From Apostichopus japonicus (lineage: Eukaryota; Echinodermata; Holothuroidea; Aspidochirotida; Stichopodidae): a stretch of DNA of 64,000 nucleotides. Under the pieces are notes generated by a model. That model made no database searches, was not told the DNA's origin, and was given only the letters and a program-made list of their open reading frames with translations. The translations under genes were made by a program, and so were the position numbers. The stretch's first letter is position 1. Every line of letters begins with the position of its first letter. Of this stretch, positions 3 through 50,796 are shown piece by piece. The DNA lies in the NCBI RefSeq assembly GCF_037975245.1, contig NC_092563.1, positions 1,701,001-1,765,000 on the forward strand, given 5' to 3'.

Positions 3-15760
<15,758 letters not shown>

Positions 15761-16875
15761 ATTGTTCCGGATTGTCACCTGGGACCTGAAACAACAAAAG
15801 TCAGTAGTTATAGAATCATTATGTCATAGTTTACTCAGTCTCATCAATTTCCCTTTCTCTTACAAATTAAAAAAAAGACCATAGTCAAGCAAAATATACA
15901 TATTGGAAGGTATGTATGTTCACATTGTTACCATGGCAATCACCTTACAACCAATAAGTTGCCAATCACCATCATTTATGTGGATAGTTTTACCAACAAT
16001 GTAAGGAAAGCAACATGCAAAAACCTAACCTAGTGAACAGGCATGATAAGTTGTAGGGATGCAACGGATCCAAATTTTTGGATCAACCAGAATGGACCGG
16101 ATCCTTCACAAAATCCGCTTGGATGTTACCCAAGAGGACATGAAATCAGAGAAAACATTAATAAAACTGTTCACAGACACCCTATCAGCTGATCAATGTG
16201 ACTAGGTTTAAATCCCTTCCCACTAAAAGCTCACCTTCTATGACCTATCATCTAATGATCAAAATCTAACATAAACCCTAGGAGAGTATAACCTATCCTG
16301 TGATTTGCACTGCTTTGATTAGATTATATTCATACTTTCGTAAATTTATATGTACAAACCTGGCCTTTGTTTTCTATCACTTTTAACTTGTAAAAAAAGT
16401 TGAGCCCAAGATTGAGCTTGGGTAGAATTCTGCGAGAACAAGTCTTCTGCAAGGTAGAGTTCAGATCAGAGTTACCGATAGCTTCACATGTTGATGTAGA
16501 ACACAAAACATCACAATGGAAATAGCAAATCAATCTGGAATAAGGAAAAACAAAAGGAATATGAGTAACTTTGTGTAACTTGTAATTCACTGGGTTAGCG
16601 GTGTAACGTGGAATGACACTTTACAGGTCCCTAACAAAACATCACCTTAAACTGTTAAATTATATATATACTTGAAGCATGTTCATAACCATTATGTGGC
16701 TTCCAGAATATTTTTATGTATATTCGAGTTGGTTGGAATCATGTTTGATCTCTAGAGTAAGGCAAATATGTCACCAAAAACAGTTCTAGTATTGTTCAAT
16801 ACAAGTGACAAACGCCTACAGTGGAATTACGACCTACAGTATCTTACCGGTTTCGAACCTCTGGACATACAATCA

Positions 16876-16946
16876 GCGTCCATAGCCTAGTGGTTAGGGT
16901 GTCCACATATAAAGCGGGAGGCCCGGGTTCGAATCCCGGTGGAGGC
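16876..16946 (+). tRNA. tRNA-like gene or tRNA pseudogene with intact Pol III promoter
   Basis: The 71-nt sequence folds as a cloverleaf. The acceptor stem GCGTCCA/TGGAGGC has one G-G mismatch. The A box TAGCCTAGTGG and B box GGTTCGAATCC match the Pol III consensus, and the T stem CCGGG/CCCGG is perfect. A run of six T at 16953-16958 would terminate Pol III soon after the acceptor stem. The anticodon stem has an A-C mismatch and a G-T pair, and the loop ATATAAA gives anticodon ATA, unusual for an animal tRNA. A pseudogene or young tRNA-derived copy is therefore likelier than a working tRNA. Confidence 0.6.
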
Positions 16947-19900
16947 TGGAAGTTTTTTCGCTGTTCTAAATTTTCCAAATCATTATGTTTTCAATTATAT
17001 AATGCAGCTCCATATTCTTGAAGTTCTGCCCATGCTGTGATTTTAACAATCAAAATCTACTAATTGCCTCAAGCAGACAGGTGAAGTTCAAATAAGTAGT
17101 GATATATCATTCAAGCAAAGCAGGAACTACAATACTATAGCAAGTAGAGCATACTGACAAATATATCATATTTGTCTTTCGTTTTCTCCACTATAAAGTT
17201 TTGGAATAATGCTTCATTCAATCTTTCATTTCAAATGGTACTTTATATAGGTATATGAATCTGGCAAATGTTTAATTTCATATCCTTACATTTTCATAAC
17301 AAACTGCAATATACATAATGTATACAGTAGGCAGGTTCTAATGAAAGTCACAAAAGAGGAAATGCAAACAGGTTAACCCAAACACTAACCAGGATCTTTT
17401 CAGAAGTCTCCATAAAGTGGTAAGTGCATATATTAAAGTGTTTGTATGTGTATTGTTGACCAAGTATTTATAGACTGGTGCTATGCCACTCAGGGTAGAT
17501 AGCTTTTGAGGTTCCTGGCTCTTTAAGCACAAATGCAAATTTCAATCAAGGCTGTGAGTCGATATTCTGCTTAATAAGGGATGTAAATGATGACTAAACG
17601 AGTGCACACCTTGTAGTAATACCATGAATGCAGGATGAGATCAAATGTGCAGTGCGGCTCTTGTGTATAACACAAATGAGTTATTAGGGAGTGAACTTTA
17701 CAACCAGACTATATGAATAGTCATGAACATTGTTCCTTGGAATACATTACATTAAGTGGTAACAATTCACGATGATATCGTGTACAATGCCTCATACTAA
17801 TGTCAATATCATTCTTAGCAACTGTCAACTAAGTAAGTACTGTGCCAATATTCCATTATGATCACATCAGTACATCACCTACTACTTAAGTATTAAATCT
17901 ACTCAATTGTAAATATAATTCATCAGGGAAAAACTGACTAAATGTGTGGTTGAATCTAACACGTATAGAGCTGTGTTCTTAGTTTATAAATGTAATATAT
18001 CTGACAGTTTTACCCAGGCCTCGACAAATATGGTCACTAACTTGCCATTGGCGAGTAGAATTTTGCTTTGGCCAATAATAGCAAATGTATTACGCCCGAC
18101 ATTTTGGCTAGTAGTGACTCGTGGGCTAGTCAAACCCCAATATTAGCAAGGCTATTGTTACAAACATGTCACAGAATGATAAAAGTACCTTGGTGAATTT
18201 GAAGCAAGGTGTAAAATGATTTTTATTTATCTATGACCAATCTCAATGCAAATTACCTGTGTAAAATGATTCGCTACCTGGGGGTGAATTGTGTACGGGA
18301 AGTTTTCATGTGCAGAGATTGTTCACAAACTTCACAGAGCATTTATAAACATTCAGCGAAAATCTCATTTAAAATCTAATATATCCATTTATTACAGGGA
18401 ACAGTTTGACCTTACGAAGTATGTAAGGTGTTTTAAAGGCATTCATAAATATGTTGTGTCCATATATAATTAAAGTTACTGAACATCGATATCACAACGG
18501 CTTGGTTATGCACCGGCAAAACCTACACAGTAGAGTATAGTACTAGCAGCCCAATTAGACTACAAGGATATCATGCTTGTAAACAGAATGTATGGCTGGT
18601 TTGTTTCATTACCATCATACATATATATATTTACAAGGAGTTATACGTACAGTACATCCACCTCAACTGTAACTTTATTTATTCTAAGATTATCCACACA
18701 CATACACACACACTATTAACTTTCCAGAGCTGTAATCAATAATTATAGATTGGAAATATCTACAGTACTGTACCTTACAGTATGCACTATAACACTTGCC
18801 AAGTTTGTTGTCAACCGGATGAGATATAATCTTATGATAAATGGGACAAGTTGTTGTGCATTTGGAAAGACTAATGTATAAAATAGGGGCCATATATGAT
18901 ATATATATATATATGTAACATGGTTTTGACAGGATAGTAGAATACATGCAGTGTACAATATGGAAGGGAGTTCACACTTTAAGGCACATTGATGATGCAT
19001 GTGAGGAATCATTGTGGCTGGCATGCATACAACAATGACTAACATTAGGAAGTCCTGACTGCTGTACCACACTGTAACTTTCTAATTGTGTATTGACTTC
19101 TAGCACATCCTCGTACATACTGTCTTGCGTTATGTAGATCTGGTGGAAGAATCATGAGTGGGAGTTTAAAATACATGAAAACTCTTCTCTCAGAGACAGG
19201 ATATCCTCCTGACCTTTAGCAGTAATAAGGTTTCATTCCCAGAAATGGAAAGTTTTAAATTACCCTGAAAATGCTAGATAATAATAGATTTGATCATTTG
19301 ACCCTGACACGTATAAAAACTTCAAAATAAATGATCACACATGTGGACTGGATTCTTTAAGATGATTGTGTTCCAGTATTTCATAAGAAATGTTTATGTC
19401 ACATCCATCTATAAACAGGTTGTATGGACTCTTCAATGAAGGTATACAGTACTAATACATCTACATGGAAGTTTAACATAACAGAGTAGACTAAAGTGCA
19501 CTTGTTGTACAATGTACTGTAGGTACAGTGGTGCTTTACATCAGCATGACAGTAGTGCAGTACAGTCTTACAGCTTACAGTTCTTACATCTTCCCATGCT
19601 TGAATTAACACCAATGGCGGCGAAAAATCTACAACAGTAAACACAGTATTATGAATGAAAATTGATGGATTACTATTGCTTCTGTATGTAGGAAAAGCAT
19701 GCAAATAGTAGGCAAAGCCTACTGTACATCTGAGTTTCCACTATTTATCACAGATTTAGATGAAGTTGATCGTTAAGTAAATTACCCAAGCCAGAGCCAA
19801 TATAAATTGTAAACTTTTAACAGAGAGACCAGCAATGGGACCACATTGCACTTCTTCCTAATCCACCTCAAAAACACAATTGGATCTCTCTTAGGATTCC

Positions 19901-35094: not shown

Positions 35095-41253
<6,159 letters not shown>

Positions 41254-41828: not shown

Positions 41829-42915
41829 CAATGTCATACAGTTTTTCATGTAAATCGAATGTGCGGCTGAGTTTATATCGGCATTTTGCCTAATAGAATA
41901 TCCTTCAAATTATCATATGTTATGGCACTACTCTTCCTCTATACCCTCTGGTAAAGATTGTAGTGATCCCGTACCAACACAAGGAAATACGACGTCATCA
42001 AATACCGCCTTCCTCACTAGTAAAGTACCCCTAAATAAAAATATTACTATATTTTTTCGCTTAAATTGAATGTGCGGCTGAGTCTGCATTTTGCCTTAGA
42101 GAATATCCTTCGAATTAATATATGTTGTAGCACTGCTCTTCCTCTATACCCTCATTTTACGATTGGAGTGATCCCGTACCTACACAAGGAAATATGACGT
42201 CATCAAGACCCCTTCCTCACAGGTAAAGTACCACTTAATTCACAATTTACATAGTTTTTCACATACATTGAATGTGCGGCTGAGTTTATATATGCATTCG
42301 GCCTAATAGAATATCCTTCGAACACTACTCTTCCTCTATACCCTCATATAAAGTTTGGAGTGATCCCGTACCCACACAAAGAAATATGACGTCATCACAG
42401 ATCCCCTTCCTCACAAGTAACGTACCACTAAATTCACAATTTACATAGTTTTTCACATAAATTGAATGTGCGGCTGAGCTTATGCATTTTGCCTAATAGA
42501 ATATCCTTCAAATTACCATATGTTATTGAATTCATTTGTTTTATCACCAATTGTGTACAATGGGAAAGGAAGTCTCCTATAAAGTCTTAAAAAGACTTAA
42601 CAAGGTAGGAGACTGTTATGGCACTACTCTCCCTCTATACCCCCATATTAAGATTATAGTGATCCCGTACCCACATAAGGAACTATTACGTAATCAAAGA
42701 CCCCCTTCCTCAAAAGTAACGTACCACTAAATTCACAATTTATGTAGTTTTTCACATAAATTGAATGTGCAGCTGAGCTTATATCTGAATTTTGCCTCAT
42801 ATGATATCCTTCAAATTAATATATGTTGTAGCACGTACTCTTCTTCTATACCCTCATATTACGATAAGAGTGATCCCGTACCTACACAAGGAAATATGAC
42901 GTAATAAATAACCCC
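41829..42915. repeat. Tandem array of about 200-bp units, five copies
   Basis: The marker GAATGTGC(G/A)GCTGAG recurs at 41857, 42068, 42270, 42464 and 42763. Each unit also has GCCTAATAGAATATCCTTC, CTCTATACCC and GTGATCCCGTACC. The last interval is longer because of an 87-bp insertion in one unit. A stray relative of the marker lies near 44,565. The array sits upstream of PSMB5. Confidence 0.9.
42527..42613. mobile_element. 87-bp hairpin insertion with TGTTAT target duplication
   Basis: One unit of the array is interrupted here; sister units read ATATGTTATGGCAC without it. TGTTAT occurs on both sides (42521-42526 and 42614-42619). The insert contains AGTCTCCTA and TAGGAGAC(T) as an outer stem and AAGTCTT and AAGACTT as an inner stem. 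It is too short to encode anything. Confidence 0.75.
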
Positions 42916-42929
42916 TTACCCACAACTGT

Positions 42930-43076
42930 TGGCTCCCCTCGGCTCCCCCCGCGACTCTCGGCTCCCCCGCGACTCTCGGCTCCCTCCGCGACTCTCGGCC
43001 ACCTCCGCAACTCTCGGCTCTTCCCGCGACTCTCGGCGCCCTCCGCGACTCTCGTCTGCCTCCGCTACACTCGTAT
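42930..43076. repeat. GC-rich 19-bp minisatellite
   Basis: About eight imperfect copies of GGCTCCCTCCGCGACTCTC run in tandem, much richer in GC than the surroundings. Open frames here are Pro/Ser/Arg-rich artefacts. Confidence 0.85.
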
Positions 43077-43225
43077 GCCTACCTTGGATTTTTTTTTATC
43101 ACCTTCACAATAAGTTCTCTTTGTGTATCTGATGGTGTATCTGATTGGTGGTACACCACCTGACAATGATCACTCAGTGACAATCTCGATGCAAGGGGTC
43201 TGGGGTTGAGAGCGGATCAGTCGTT

Positions 43226-44430
43226 TAGCCCGGCAGCCCAGTGCACTTTGATCAAACGAACGAGGTACCAATATCTGAGTATTAGAACATTTGTGGAAAA
43301 ACCCAGTATATCCAAAAGTGGATGTCTGCCGTGGTCCCTCTGCTGCATGTGGCCCATGGGGCCGGTTAAAGGGGGACCAAAAATGCATCTGATCAAACGA
43401 ACGAGGTACCACTTGAAACCAATGTCAACTTAATGCATGAATGCCACAAAGTACTGAATGGCCCATGCCAGACAAATTTTCCGCTGCTAAGGGCCCGCCA
43501 GACGCCCCCAAATATGGCCCAAATGCCCATTATCGTAGCATTGACCCAGATTAAATATGCAAGGTACCACTCAAAACCGGTTTGGAATGTTCGGGTTGAT
43601 CTTACAGACTATGGAAATCATCATGCCAGACAAATTTTCTGCTACAAAGGGCCCGCCAGACGCCCCAAAAGGGCCCCTAAAAATGCATTTGATCAAACGA
43701 ACGAGGTACCACTTGAAACCAATGTCAACTTAATGCATGAATGCCACAAAGTACTTAATGTTACAAATGTCATGTCACAGGGCACATATAGTCTGCGTCA
43801 ATATACAATTCATTAGGCCCATATAGGGCCGCATTGGGCCACCTATTCTTTCTATCTGGTGGGACCTATGCAGAAGAAAATTTGTCTTGCATTGGCAGTT
43901 CTTTACTCTGTGGAAAGTACCTTTGCATTTGTTATCGGTTTTGTGGTACCAACTATGATTGATCATAGCCCATTTGGGGGCCCTTTTTTTAGTTGTCTGT
44001 TGGCCCCTTTGTAGCAGAAAATTTGTTTGGTATGATAATTTCCATAGTCTGTAAGATCAACCCGAACATTCCAAACCGGTTTTGAGTGGTACCTTGCATA
44101 TTTAATCTGGGTCAATGCTTCGATAATGGGCATTTGGGCCATATTTGGGGGCGTCTGGCGGGCCCTTAGCAGCAGAAAATTTGTCTGGCATGGGCCATTC
44201 AGTACTTTGTGGCATTCATGCATTAAGTTGACATTGGTTTCAAGTGGTACCTCGTTCGTTTGATCAGATGCATTTTTGGTCCCCCTTTAACCGGCCCCAG
44301 GGGCCACATGCAGCAGAGGAACCACGGCAGACATCCACTTTTGGATATACTGGGTTTTTCCACAAATGTTCCAATACTCAGATATTGGTACCTCGTTCGT
44401 TTGATCAAAGTGCACTGGGCTACCGGGCTA
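43226..44430. mobile_element. Palindromic (foldback-like) DNA element with GTT target duplication
   Basis: The ends are inverted copies: TAGCCCGGCAGCCCAGTGCA at the left and its near-perfect reverse complement at the right. Arms of about 450 bp (43226-43677 and 43978-44430) pair almost throughout. The middle 300 bp holds degenerate copies of the same subrepeats around the small palindrome GGCCCATATAGGGCC (43816-43830). GTT flanks both ends (43223-43225 and 44431-44433). Subrepeats such as GATCAAACGAACGAGGTACC recur within the arms. It has no transposase; short frames inside are repeat artefacts. The superfamily is unknown. Confidence 0.85.
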
Positions 44431-45750
44431 GTTCGGTAGTTTGGTTTTCGTGCCCAAGTTTTTTCCTGGGTGACTTTTCTTAATAAAAAGTAGTAGCGGC
44501 AGCGGTGCTAAACGTGCATGCTAACTTCAATCTGGTTTAATTACCTTATATTACGAATGTACGGCTGAATGTGCGGCTCGAAAATAGAAATCCTTTTTTA
44601 TTTACATTAGAAATGGAAGTTAGGTCAAACACAATATACTCTGTATATTTTGGTGCTATTCGTGCAATCTAGCCTTGGACTTCACCTGAAGAACGCAATA
44701 CTATTACTAAGAAGAACGAGCCTAAAGTACCAGGATAAATCACTTTGCCTCTTGTAAGTGACGTAGGCATTAGTCAACAAGAAAAGATTAATATTTTTAC
44801 TATAGCCAAAGTATAGGCTATTGTACAATAGTATAGTAAAGGCTTCATAATTGACGCACCCCCGTAATTGGCGCACCCTCAATTATTACTAGCAACGATA
44901 TAGAAGGCCACCTAAACTTTTTGCAGTCAAGCAGAATTACATATTTCATGAGTTTGAATCCATTTCAGCTATTTGCTGACCAAATTGTGGTATTTTTTAA
45001 GCTTTTAACACCCTCCCCCCAGTTTTACACATTTTTTGGACATTTGGAAATCTTACTCCCTAAAAATAACCAAAATTACTTCAATATGATACCACTTCTC
45101 TCTGGGACCTGACCTGTCTAAGCTTAGAGGTTCAGAGCATAGCAAACAGCATCCAAAGTCAATGGATGTATACTTAGGCCTACACTACAGTTAGCTTATC
45201 GACGAATGTGTCAATTTAGGGGTATGAAAGAACTTGACACAGCAGACATTTTGTGGTCAAATTCTTCTCAATTGTTCGTTGCGTAGGTACAGAACAATAA
45301 ATATTTTGAGATCATTAAATTTCTAAGGAACTAAACATATGAAAAGTGCATGCAGTTGAGTGATTTTGATTTTAAGTTGACCGACATTGTCAATCCAATC
45401 CTTAAGTGCGTCAATTATGAGCCCACCATGCTACTACTTACAGTAGTACAAGTTAACGTACAAAGTTATTTACAAATCAGTTATTACAAAAATCACACAT
45501 TCACAGCCCCAATGGGACTGGGGTTGAGAGCGGATCAGTCGTTTGGTAGTTTGGTTTTCGTGCCCAGGTTCTTTCCTGCGCGACTTTTTCTTAAAAAGTA
45601 CCCTCGTTATTGACGTCAAATATTATTAGCAACGATACAGCAGGCAACCTAAAATTTTTGCAGTCAAGCAGAATTACATATTTCATGAGCTTGAATCCAT
45701 TTCAGCTATTTGCTGACCAAACCGTGGTTCATTTTATAATTTTTTTCATA
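44425..45750. repeat. Local duplication flanking the palindromic element
   Basis: The sequence 44,434-44,480 resembles 45,544-45,595, and 44,884-45,003 resembles 45,628-45,746 (GCAGTCAAGCAGAATTACAT and following bases). The left flank of the element (43,200-43,225) also recurs at 45,518-45,543. The two copies differ by an insertion or deletion of about 380 bp. Confidence 0.8.
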
Positions 45751-46507: not shown

Positions 46508-49500
46508 GGAGGAGTTACAGTCAGATAGCCAGAGAAACATCAAATGCCTTGTCACTGGTTGTGACAAGCTCTTTTCAACTCTACCTGCAATGTGGATGCA
46601 CAGTGCTAAGACACATCATGTTTACAAGGTGAATGTTGTATAGACTACAAAGGTGCATGTACTTTAGTCTAGCTTTAAACATTGGCTGCTTTACAGAACA
46701 TTTAACATCACAAATTCAGACATCCTTGTAATTGAATCAAGTTTTTAAATCTTGCATTTATGTCTAAGTGCATTGACTGACCTTAAAGTCACTTATTCTT
46801 TATATCTTGCCAAAGGCAAAAGGAATAGATTAGAGGGGGGCAATGACATGTAACTTGTGTGTGTATGGTGACTCTCACGCTGTTAAACATTATGACTCAA
46901 AAAGTGTAGGATTGATGTTCTTCATACTGGATATTTGGATACTTCATGTGGTGAGTTGTATGAACGAGCTTGATGGCCAAATCCAGAGGTCAGTGTAGAC
47001 CATAAATCTGAAATCTTAGACTAATACAGCCGGGAATAATTATCCAGTATCACATTGGAAAATGCCATACAAAATGGTCAAGCTGCTATACAAGAGTAAA
47101 GATGTATACCAATTTTTCTACACAGAAAAAAAAAGGATTCAGTCAGAGAAAAAAATTCTGAGCCTAGAAAATTCTACACAAAATTTGATGTTTTAAGTAT
47201 GCTCTGACTTCACAAGCTTGTTAGAGTTAATTTGAAATTTAGAGACTTGAATGGTGACACATTGCAATGTTCACTGGTTGAAACGTCCAATCAAAGTTCT
47301 TTATTGGACTCATGTAATATGTATTTTAAGAACTGTAATTGAAGCTCTAAGGTTAAAGTGTGTCCTAAGCAATGTGACAGCAGATTAGTATCACTTAGTT
47401 TGCATGGCATCCCACACGGTGCATCCGTCCTCGTAATGTTACATCAACAATACATTTTTTTCCCCTTCTTTTCTCAATACCAGGATGAGGCATTCAAACA
47501 AGCAATGTCAAGCACCAAGAAAAAAGATCGCTCAAAGTCGGTCATCAAGCAGTTTTTTTGTCCAATGGCTGGATGCAACAGGGGAGAAAGCGGCAATAAA
47601 CCCTTTGATCGACTAACCACTTTGAAAATGGTAAGAAATGACTACCTCTTGATCCAATCTTGTAAAACAATGTTTTGTGTTTATCTTGGTTAACATTGAA
47701 CATTGGATATATTCACTCTTCAATAAAATATTTTAAGAAATGTTGTCCATCACTTTGACCAGTAAAGTTTCAATTCAAACAAAGGACAAAACTGTCTTTT
47801 GTTTTTCAAAATTTCAGCTTTTGCTTTTTGGATGTCATACTGATATGAGAATAGTGCCTGTTTTACAAGATTTTCAGAGACTAATGGAATCTGTAACATT
47901 TTCATTGTTTTATGATCATGGGATGAACGCCTCTGAGGGTGTCCTAACTTGATCAATTGGAGTCTCGTATTGAGTTCATACTAAGATTTGTCAATTAATT
48001 TGGTTAAAATTGCTGGTAGACAGTAATGGAGTGGTAGAAAAGTGCAATATGTTGCTTTAAACTAGTGTTATGGCCCAGTGAATAAAGGCAGTGGCATAAG
48101 AAGCAGTGAAAGCTAACATATAGGGAGTGTCATGGGTTAGAGTCCTGGTTAGCTAAAAGTAAGATGGGTTTTTTATCCATGGTAGTTAGAAGGGGCCTTC
48201 CAAATGGTACAAAAAATAAAAAATGAACTATGGCTATTCCAATTGTGAAGTGTACGTAATAAGCTATACAGCCTCTCCCACATGTGACTGTTGAACAATT
48301 ACAAATAACTGCCCTTTCAGGTGGTCCGTTATAGATATTAGATTATGAAGGAAGGCCAATTGTGATCAACTCCCCATCACTGGTATCTATTGCTAGATAA
48401 TTGATTTTCTTGAAGTTGATCTCAAAATGTTTCGGTCTTAACCGAAGGGGTTAGAACTAATTTTCTTTGTCTCTCTCTCCAAATTAGCATTATATCAACC
48501 AACATGCAGAGAAAAAGTTTGTATGCGAGAGGTGCGGCAGCAAGTTTGGCAGTTCAAGTTACCTGGATGTCCACGTCAGCCGCTGTGGTCAGATGTTTAA
48601 ATGCAGCTGTGGAGTACCATATACCACACCAGAGGCATTATATGTACATGCTAAGAGACAAAAACATGAACTTACAGAAGAATTCCTCAAGTCTCGGTGA
48701 GTGTTGACACTTTATATCGGAAGAGTAGGTCGGGCAATATGGCTTTTGGCTGCACAGGAACAGGACCTTTTAGATTTAGTGGTTTATTTGTATACTATTT
48801 TCAAGATCGGTACTTTCATATTTGGAACAGAAATTTCTATGCTTTAGAATCCTCTTTGTGACCCTGGAGAGACCAGCTGCAGTTTTATTGAACCTAATAG
48901 AATAGGTTCATAGTAGTTAGGTTAATTTTTCCTGAAATCGGAATTTTCTGCATAGTTTTTGGAAAAGTGTGAAATTTCATTCAATTATAAGATTCCTCAT
49001 AGAATTTTTTGATGGTTATTTACAAGAATGTTAATTTGCCTAGGTTTAAGGAGAGATTCAGGTTTTCATTTTGAGGTAGTATTAGTTAATTGAGAAAACA
49101 CTGTGACTTCATGCAGTGATCGGGAAGCTTCATTCACTTTTTCTTTTTTCATTAATTTCTTTTTAGAAAATACAAATGGCGCAGGAAAGACTTGGAGGCT
49201 AAAGCATTTAACAAACCCACTGTTAAAAAGCGAGGCCTTGTTCCACTGCTTCCGAAACCACCTGTGTTTATACTTCACCAAATAGTTTGCCCAGTAAAAG
49301 TTTCCACCTGCACCCAGACAGATGGAGGGCATTTACCTTCGTACCCAACCCCAAAGAAGAAAAGGCAATCCATCACTAACGAGAAGAGACTAAAACAGCC
49401 TACGACAAAAAGGAAAAGAATTGACCGAAATGCTGAGGTTTTATCACAACGACATGCTAATACTGGTAGTGATCACTTTGCTTCTCAACAGTTACAAAGG

Positions 49501-50796
49501 TTAGCTTCAACTGCAGAAACAGAGTTGACCAACATTCCTTACAATGTTATTCAAGTCATTTCAGACAGACAAGGTCCAGTGACCATTCAGCAACCCCCTC
49601 ATGAGAGGAATGGTAGAGCCCATTTTGCAAATTACTCCCGTACACTGTCGTCTGCATGCAATCAGTTAACCTCGCAATCACCTTTACATTATTCGAGTGC
49701 TGCCACAGATGGACTCTCAAGTCAAGGTATTCAAAGTTCAAATTTGGTATCTGTTGGAAGTTCACTAGCGGGTGGGATACCCAGCAGCTCCTCTCATGGG
49801 TCAGGTTGCATGATGACAAACATAGGGACATCAGCACCATCCAGTAGCTATCAAACTAATGTAGTGACAGTCTCCACTGGTTCAGATCCGGAGCAAGCTG
49901 GCACAGTGCAAGCTGCGTCTAATTTACTCACTATGGCAACGGGGTCGAACGTGATATCTACAGCAAATGAACCGCAAAACGCCCTCTCCTTCGCAAATTC
50001 ATCGACCTCCACAGAGAGTAACGATTCGATTAATTTCCGCAGCATCGGTACAACGTTTGAAACCTTCGGAGTGCCGACACAGACGGATTTCAGCTTCTTG
50101 GATTTGTTTGCCTCTTGTGACATACAGACTCAAACCATAGAGAGCATATTTGCCTGCAGTCCGGTCAACCAGGAAACGTCAGCTACCCAGACACAACTCC
50201 AGTTGCTTAGGGACAGAGCAGTGGAGACTATTGCAACTACCACGACGGATGCAGAGACATTGGTGAACAATATGCTGGAAGAAGATGCACATCAGACGTC
50301 CATGCAGACCCAGACATTAATAGCAGAACAGAGTACCATGGAGACACAAACTCCCAGCAGCAGTACCCATGCTCTGAATAATATGAGAACAGTCGAACTC
50401 CAGACTATGACCCACTCCACGATTGCTACCTCTCCTTGCCCTCTTCCTGAAGGAGAGGGGGGTCTGCAACAAGAAACACAGGAAACACAGACAATGAAAA
50501 CATTGTCATCCCACGATCTACTCTCTCTTGATATCTACACCCAGACGGGACTGAATGATGTCGACCTCTCAGATAGAACTCATCTGGATGACCTGGAGTT
50601 TGCGGACATTCATACGCAAACGATGGACGACTTTGATTTGGGAGTTTTTGGAATGGATGGGAACAGCACGTCTGTCCAAACAGATGTCCCACTCGTCAGC
50701 AGGGGAGAGGGTAGCCATACTGTAGGTACACAAGTTCAAATGGAGACGGTCTCAGCTGACGTTCAGACTGATGCACATACTGTACGAATAGTCTAG
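46473..50796 (+). CDS. ATMIN: ATMIN/ASCIZ-like zinc-finger protein with LC8-binding TQT array
   Basis: In vertebrates ATMIN is a transcription factor that activates the dynein light chain LC8 (DYNLL1) gene and interacts with ATM. Four exons (46473-46628, 47484-47630, 48488-48696, 49167-50796) join in phase to give 713 residues (human about 823). The N-terminus holds four zinc-finger-like units: C25-C30-H43-H48; C78-C83-H102-H107; C114-C117-H130-C134; C140-C142-H155-H161. Their order and the HAEKK linker match ATMIN. A basic stretch follows near residues 230-256 (PKKKRQ and TKRKR), a likely nuclear signal. The tail has nine TQT motifs plus VQTD and TQV variants, one near residue 219 and the rest between about 474 and 705; such motifs bind LC8. 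The ATG at 46473 has a good context (A at -3, G at +4). An ATG at 46451 is out of frame. Confidence 0.93.
47028..47215 (+). repeat. Dispersed repeat, copy B
   Basis: This is the partner of 35,256-35,440 in the same orientation, lying in the first ATMIN intron. Identity is moderate with several small indels. No Pol III boxes or coding frame were recognised. Confidence 0.6.
48060..48277 (+). mobile_element. tRNA-derived SINE, copy 2
   Basis: It aligns with 39,252-39,484 from CTAGTGTTATGG through TGTGAAGTG. The A box (TGGCCCAGTGA) and B box (GGTTAGAGTCC) are more degraded than in copy 1. It lies in the second ATMIN intron. Confidence 0.7.

Follow-up and report, generated by a model that had tools for sequence, protein, structure and literature searches.

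What kind of event places a 1.2-kb, nearly symmetric palindrome in one copy of a duplicated host sequence and leaves the other copy without it? This question is raised by positions 43226 to 44430 of the 64-kb stretch of DNA analyzed here (the window). We conclude, with a probability of roughly 0.78, that the palindrome is a non-autonomous, non-coding foldback/MITE-like DNA transposon that inserted, with a 3-bp stagger, into one member of an older pair of host-sequence copies, and, with the same probability, that the other member retained the pre-insertion site. The element most likely fits a known kind, the long-arm transposon that lacks genes, of which it offers a neat though rather ordinary example at one locus. 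Its value is as a clear single-locus case in which such a transposon can be compared with a paralogous empty site.

Arms and centre of the element

The whole element (43226..44430, no strand assigned) is 1,205 bp long, begins with TAGCCC, ends with GGGCTA and has TAGCCCGG...CCGGGCTA as its outermost sequences. A repeat search paired arms at 43226-43685 and 43971-44430 over 460 nt with 95% complementarity, and the mismatches between these arms are unevenly placed, with 9 located within the first 426 positions (417/426 paired) and 14 within the last 34 (20/34 paired). This jump in mismatches after position 426 indicates a well-matched arm of ~426 bp that ends near 43651 on the left and 44005 on the right. 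The left terminal inverted repeat is thus placed at 43226..43651 (plus strand, 426 bp, 417/426 paired with the right arm), the right terminal inverted repeat at 44005..44430 (minus strand, 426 bp) and an asymmetric centre of 353 bp at 43652..44004 (no strand). The left part of the centre (43668-43760) reproduces 43368-43460, the start of the internal unit L2, at 94%, and the right part corresponds to the diverged unit R4; both units are described below. Transitions make up 7/9 of the differences between the arms.

The inverted repeat is genuine. There are 467 reverse-complement matches of 30 nt inside the element, as compared with 1, 0, 0, 0 and 0 reverse-complement matches of only 12 nt in five mononucleotide shuffles of it, and when folded as a single DNA strand the arms pair lengthwise with a minimum free energy of -601.3 kcal/mol, a value computed without a shuffle control. 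The palindromic element that the preliminary description had reported at 43226-44430 is therefore upheld by arms that pair at 417/426 positions and then break off sharply. Among the 25 inverted pairs listed for the window, the only others are shifted versions of the element, and the 25 of 31 pairs listed in the repeat search are those of the element itself together with AT-rich ones at 21.2-21.4 kb. Chimeric inverted reads are another source of long, near-perfect inverted repeats, so that an assembly or library artefact could explain the arms. Such an artefact is extremely improbable here because the arms differ at 9/426 positions, because the asymmetric centre retains an older symmetry between diverged units, and because a clean empty site can be read from the flanks.

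The insertion site and its paralogous copy

The sequence flanking the element is found a second time at 45510..45743 (plus strand), where the element is absent and the empty site reads CAGTCGTTTGGTAGTTTGG. This 19-base string lies at 45536-45554, which corrects the interval of 45,537-45,553 given in the preliminary description, as that interval holds only 17 bases. The three junction strings quoted there are accurate, with the filled site reading CAGTCGTT, then TAGCCC...GGGCTA, then GTTCGGTAG, and the empty site reading CAGTCGTTTGGTAG. The two flank copies are collinear, with 2/34 differences between 43192-43225 and the sequence from 45510, 8/49 differences between 44434-44482 and the sequence from 45544, and 15/128 differences in a third block that aligns 44879-45006 with the sequence from 45616. 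Homology to the left of the insertion extends for 34 nt only, with no match reported further left. Additionally, the filled copy has ~373 bp at 44488-44860 that the empty copy lacks (the copy spacing is 1,110 versus 737), so the element is not the sole difference between the flank copies, which also differ through either an insertion or a deletion of this extra sequence.

When the element and one GTT are taken out, the filled site differs from its paralogous empty counterpart by a single transition at the junction, and the claim that the duplicate preserves an empty site accordingly holds. The element is flanked by GTT on the left (43223..43225, no strand) and GTT on the right (44431..44433, no strand), which together form a putative target-site duplication. 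At the ends defined by the terminal inverted repeats, the direct match between the flanks is 3 bases when lengths of 1-11 are tried. A 3-base match across a distance of 1,205 bp occurs at 1,222/62,690 window positions (1.9%), such that GTT..GTT would arise by chance alone in about 2% of cases. A duplication of TCG, present as TCG..TCG when the flanks are taken at offset -2, was set aside as the empty copy would then need extra bases.

The assertion that the empty site fixes both the ends and a 3-bp duplication is nevertheless too strong. The same site is fitted by GTTT, then AGCCC...GGGCTA, then GTTC, which is a 4-bp duplication with one mutation, and strictly fixed ends are also contradicted by a 1,208-bp insertion without any duplication, which explains the empty site with no mismatch at the junction. 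Relative to the 3-bp model, the likelihoods are 0.15 for no duplication, 0.02 for 4 bp, 0.002 for TCG and 0.0001 for TA, ratios that are rough as their rates and length weights were assumed from the 64-kb window.

The 4-bp version involves the same kind of transposon with ends AGCCC...GGGCTA and a duplicated GTTT, one copy of which has mutated to GTTC. One substitution accounts for the empty site in this case, just as in the 3-bp model. We consider it improbable, as the T..A pair that ends the inverted repeat would then be coincidental and the mutation would have to fall in the short time since insertion, giving the rough likelihood of 0.02 cited above. An origin that does not involve transposition is also quite unlikely. 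Fold-back repair or template switching could have built the palindrome where it stands, or the 1,208 bp could have been inserted without duplication. The presence of a single copy agrees with such an origin, as does the local alignment score against the empty site, which is 61.0 upon removal of 1,208 bp that include GTTC, with neither a duplication nor a mismatch needed, and 59.0 under the 3-bp model; relative to the latter, the no-duplication model has a likelihood of 0.15. Conversely, nothing else in the 64-kb window matches the inserted sequence, and a palindrome that grew in place would be expected to contain flanking sequence. The next bases outward from TAGCCC..GGGCTA, T and G, are unpaired. 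Finally, TA-duplicating elements are common and TA is present at both ends, which would allow for a Tc1/mariner-type element, GCCCGG...CCGGGC, with a TA duplication. We regard this as very unlikely, since TA at both ends is expected of any inverted repeat that begins with TA, and since the empty copy lacks TA, which would call for a 5-bp deletion exactly at the site in addition to a chance GTT..GTT (rough likelihood ratio of 0.0001 versus the 3-bp model). Thus, a 3-bp GTT duplication is likely rather than proven, as judged from one locus and one paralogous empty site.

The order of events may be read from divergence. The flank copies differ at 25/211 positions (11.8%) and the element arms at 9/426 (2.1%), and with flanks that are more diverged than the arms the simple reading is that the element inserted after the flank duplication. 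Conversion between the arms could keep their identity high, in which case the element may look younger than its true age.

Other repeats occur beside the element. Just to its left there are a 194-bp array of 3 copies with an 82% match (41926-42509) and a 19-bp GC-rich minisatellite, CTCGGCTCCCTCCGCGACT (42938-43073). On the right, a perfect inverted pair of 15 nt, TCATAATTGACGCAC and GTGCGTCAATTATGA, bounds 576 bp at 44845-45420, within which lies the first of the 128-nt repeat copies; this interval is possibly a second, older non-coding transposon.

Outward-facing units and their 22-bp motif

Each half of the element consists of four ~150-bp units, all facing outward, with a version of a 22-bp motif at the head of each. 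The heads are spaced 141, 158 and 142 bp apart in the left half and 141, 158 and 143 bp apart in the right half. The motif, TGATCAAACGAACGAGGTACCA, is exact in five of the eight units, namely L1 (43249..43270), L2 (43390..43411) and L4 (43690..43711) on the plus strand and R1 (44386..44407) and R2 (44245..44266) on the minus strand. The heads of L3 (43548..43569, plus strand) and R3 (44087..44108, minus strand) each match at 15/22 positions, with GGTACCA kept and TGATCA lost, and that of R4 (43944..43965, minus strand) matches at 16/22, with TGATCA and GGTACCA both kept around a different 9-bp spacer. GGTACC is thereby kept in 8/8 heads, and TGATCA as well as the composite TGATCA-N9-GGTACCA in 6/8. 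The 1.2-kb element contains 8 GGTACC sites, with 7 present across the rest of the 64-kb window, and the longer pattern TGATCA-N9-GGTACCAC has 4 matches in the window, 4/4 of which are inside the element (mean of 0.00 over 100 shuffles).

Conservation of the heads contrasts with that of the remaining unit sequence. For example, L1 and L2 share the motif at 22/22 positions and have an identity of 0.49 in their remainders, versus a mean of 0.48 and a maximum of 0.54 for shuffled sequences (n=50). Because units 1 and 2 share the motif exactly while their remainders do not align, and by likeness to the Galileo element, we infer that the 22-bp motifs are protein-binding sites. In Galileo, a member of the P superfamily in Drosophila, internal repeats contain tested transposase sites, and the same paper describes a binding-site role for tandem repeats in Foldback and Phantom elements as untested (PMC3688188). 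Other unit tails are related, with values of 0.63 for L2-L3 (shuffle mean 0.51) and 0.63 for L3-R4 (shuffle mean 0.49), and the unit 1 tail is weakly like the unit 3 tail (L1-L3 0.55 and R1-L3 0.57, shuffle maximum 0.53), from which it follows that common descent accounts for part of the motif's spread. The motif copies are also partly non-independent, as the left and right arms are near-copies of one another and as L4 opens with a 93-nt near-copy (94%) of L2. A second block of ~33 nt is common to L2, L3, R2, R3 and R4, which match a composite at 28-32/33 positions, figures that are inflated since the composite was built from the same units that were scored. This pattern suggests an old array in which the ~150-bp units have diverged while their heads were kept or re-copied.

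A cut-and-paste mechanism can be proposed for the gene-less transposon favored above. Transposase would be provided in trans by an autonomous partner and would recognize the outer ends of the element. The 22-bp motifs, each with two 6-bp palindromes 9 bp apart and repeated outward every 141-158 bp, may bind the transposase or an accessory protein, and the motif-bound protein could hold the two long arms together ahead of transfer. The excised element would then be joined to a target with 3-bp staggered ends, the repair of which would yield GTT twice. If the ladder of motifs does represent transposase binding sites, then the element would join Galileo as an example of long arms that act as multi-site recognition platforms, and its short duplication would assign it to another transposase family.

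Coding capacity and relationship to described transposons

No coding capacity was found in the element. There are 13 stop-to-stop open reading frames of at least 60 aa (one of 148 aa, one of 93 aa and 11 others of 60-107 aa), of which a Pfam scan covered those of 148 aa and 93 aa. The 93-aa frame matched no Pfam family, and the 148-aa frame gave only a sub-threshold match to Kre28 (E of 0.012; 15.1 bits with a cut-off of 27), so no transposase was found in the two of 13 frames scanned. There is likewise no Rfam match at gathering score within the element and no second element copy elsewhere in the 64-kb window. Searches of sequence collections gave 0 matches to an exact 20-mer derived from the motif (viral_contigs and genome_contigs), 0 to a terminal 21-mer pattern (viral_contigs), 0 to an inner-block pattern (viral_contigs and genome_contigs) and 0 element copies by distant blastn against plasmids and phages; these collections are prokaryotic and viral and possibly lack records of the source genome, so these misses weigh little for an animal repeat. 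None of the titles and abstract openings listed for open-licence papers describes the element, a 16-mer text search returned 0 papers, and the element may belong to a family already listed in Repbase or Dfam.

Galileo and the foldback elements (FB, Tetris, Tm1 and sea-urchin TU) are like the element in that their long terminal inverted repeats are composed of internal repeats. Target duplications of the foldback type are about 7-10 bp. The element, which would work in the manner of a foldback element, differs from these systems in that its 3-bp duplication lies outside this range and is too short for Tetris or Tm1 as described. Tetris has long arms of iterated units with an inner repeated motif, copies found without conserved ORFs and target duplications of 8-9 bp (PMC4079207), and Tm1 has duplications of 8-10 bp, mostly 9, and tandem units of 13-15 bp (PMC3169594). 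The latter contrast with the ~150-bp units of the element, in which the 22-bp head is best kept.

Superfamilies can also be compared by their ends and target signatures. PIF/Harbinger elements have TWA as their target, and GTT/AAC fits neither this sequence nor the ANT, CWG and TNA of Pangu, NuwaI and NuwaII on either strand. Published descriptions give signatures of ANT for Pangu, CWG for NuwaI and C|TNA|G for NuwaII, with inverted repeats that usually start with AG or GG in Pangu and with GGG in NuwaI (PMC4482050), duplications of 3 bp for canonical Harbinger elements (PMC12730594), and 0-4 bp for PHIS as a whole (PMC10045372). Also described are CMCT elements, which mostly have CA..TG ends with 2-5-bp duplications, PlavakaA having TGT..ACA (PMC12730594), Chapaev with ends of 5'-CAC..GTG-3' and Chapaev3 with TWA as its target (PMC4079192), and TRC elements that start with CCC and duplicate 2 bp (PMC4298943). 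The 2-5-bp range of Chapaev, Chapaev3 and other CMC or CMCT elements is compatible with the element, but the CAC..GTG ends of CMC (EnSpm, Chapaev and Chapaev3) are not found, as the element has TAG..CTA with GTT; odd-ended CMC members exist. IS3EU/GingerRoot elements share TA..TA termini with the element and usually have a 6-bp duplication (PMC10045372), which is absent here as GTCGTT and GTTCGG are mismatched. A TA duplication of the Tc1/mariner type is not found at this one locus, where the empty site reads GTTTGG without TA, and the TAA target described for Fot-type pogo elements (PMC7386202) differs from GTT/AAC. Consequently, Tc1/mariner, PIF/Harbinger, Pangu, NuwaI, NuwaII, Chapaev/EnSpm and IS3EU are disfavored because each fails one feature at the element locus. 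Zator makes 3-bp duplications (PMC10045372) and is alike at this locus when compared by duplication length, with no transposase found in the element. Within PHIS, the signatures compared are those of PIF/Harbinger, Pangu, NuwaI and NuwaII, so that ISL2EU and Spy remain candidates, along with Zator, CMC members with atypical ends and lineages yet to be classified.

These comparisons bear on the preliminary description's view that the element matches no superfamily that can be named with confidence. GTT and TAGCCC..GGGCTA do oppose the commonest groups with 3-bp duplications, but several known superfamilies make duplications of this length. Its further suggestion that the element may be undescribed is neither supported nor excluded, given that non-coding elements of long, symmetric build are already known. 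An undescribed DNA transposon lineage would be one in which the ends are TA..TA, the 3-bp duplication is free in sequence and a nucleosome-sized ladder of outward TGATCA-N9-GGTACCA sites assembles a multimeric transposase complex; we consider such a lineage unlikely.

The surroundings of the element include proteasome-subunit exons on one side (36567-36842 and 39708-40010, minus strand; Pfam PF00227) and a TQT-rich open reading frame on the other (49156-50796, plus strand), which has no Pfam match up to E = 1 and which we take to resemble ATMIN. Pfam C2 exons are also present in the window, and this gene content (a proteasome subunit and C2 exons) fits that of a eukaryote, which we take to be an animal. 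Elsewhere in the window there are a 38-bp tandem repeat of 7.2 copies with a 94% match (8735-9009) and a satellite-like 109-bp tandem repeat of 7 copies with a 96% match (11646-12411). The one Rfam match in the window at gathering score is a tRNA at 16876-16947 (50.8 bits), and ARAGORN calls tRNA-Tyr with the odd anticodon ATA at 16875-16948, a tRNA-like sequence that may be a tRNA-derived SINE or a pseudogene.
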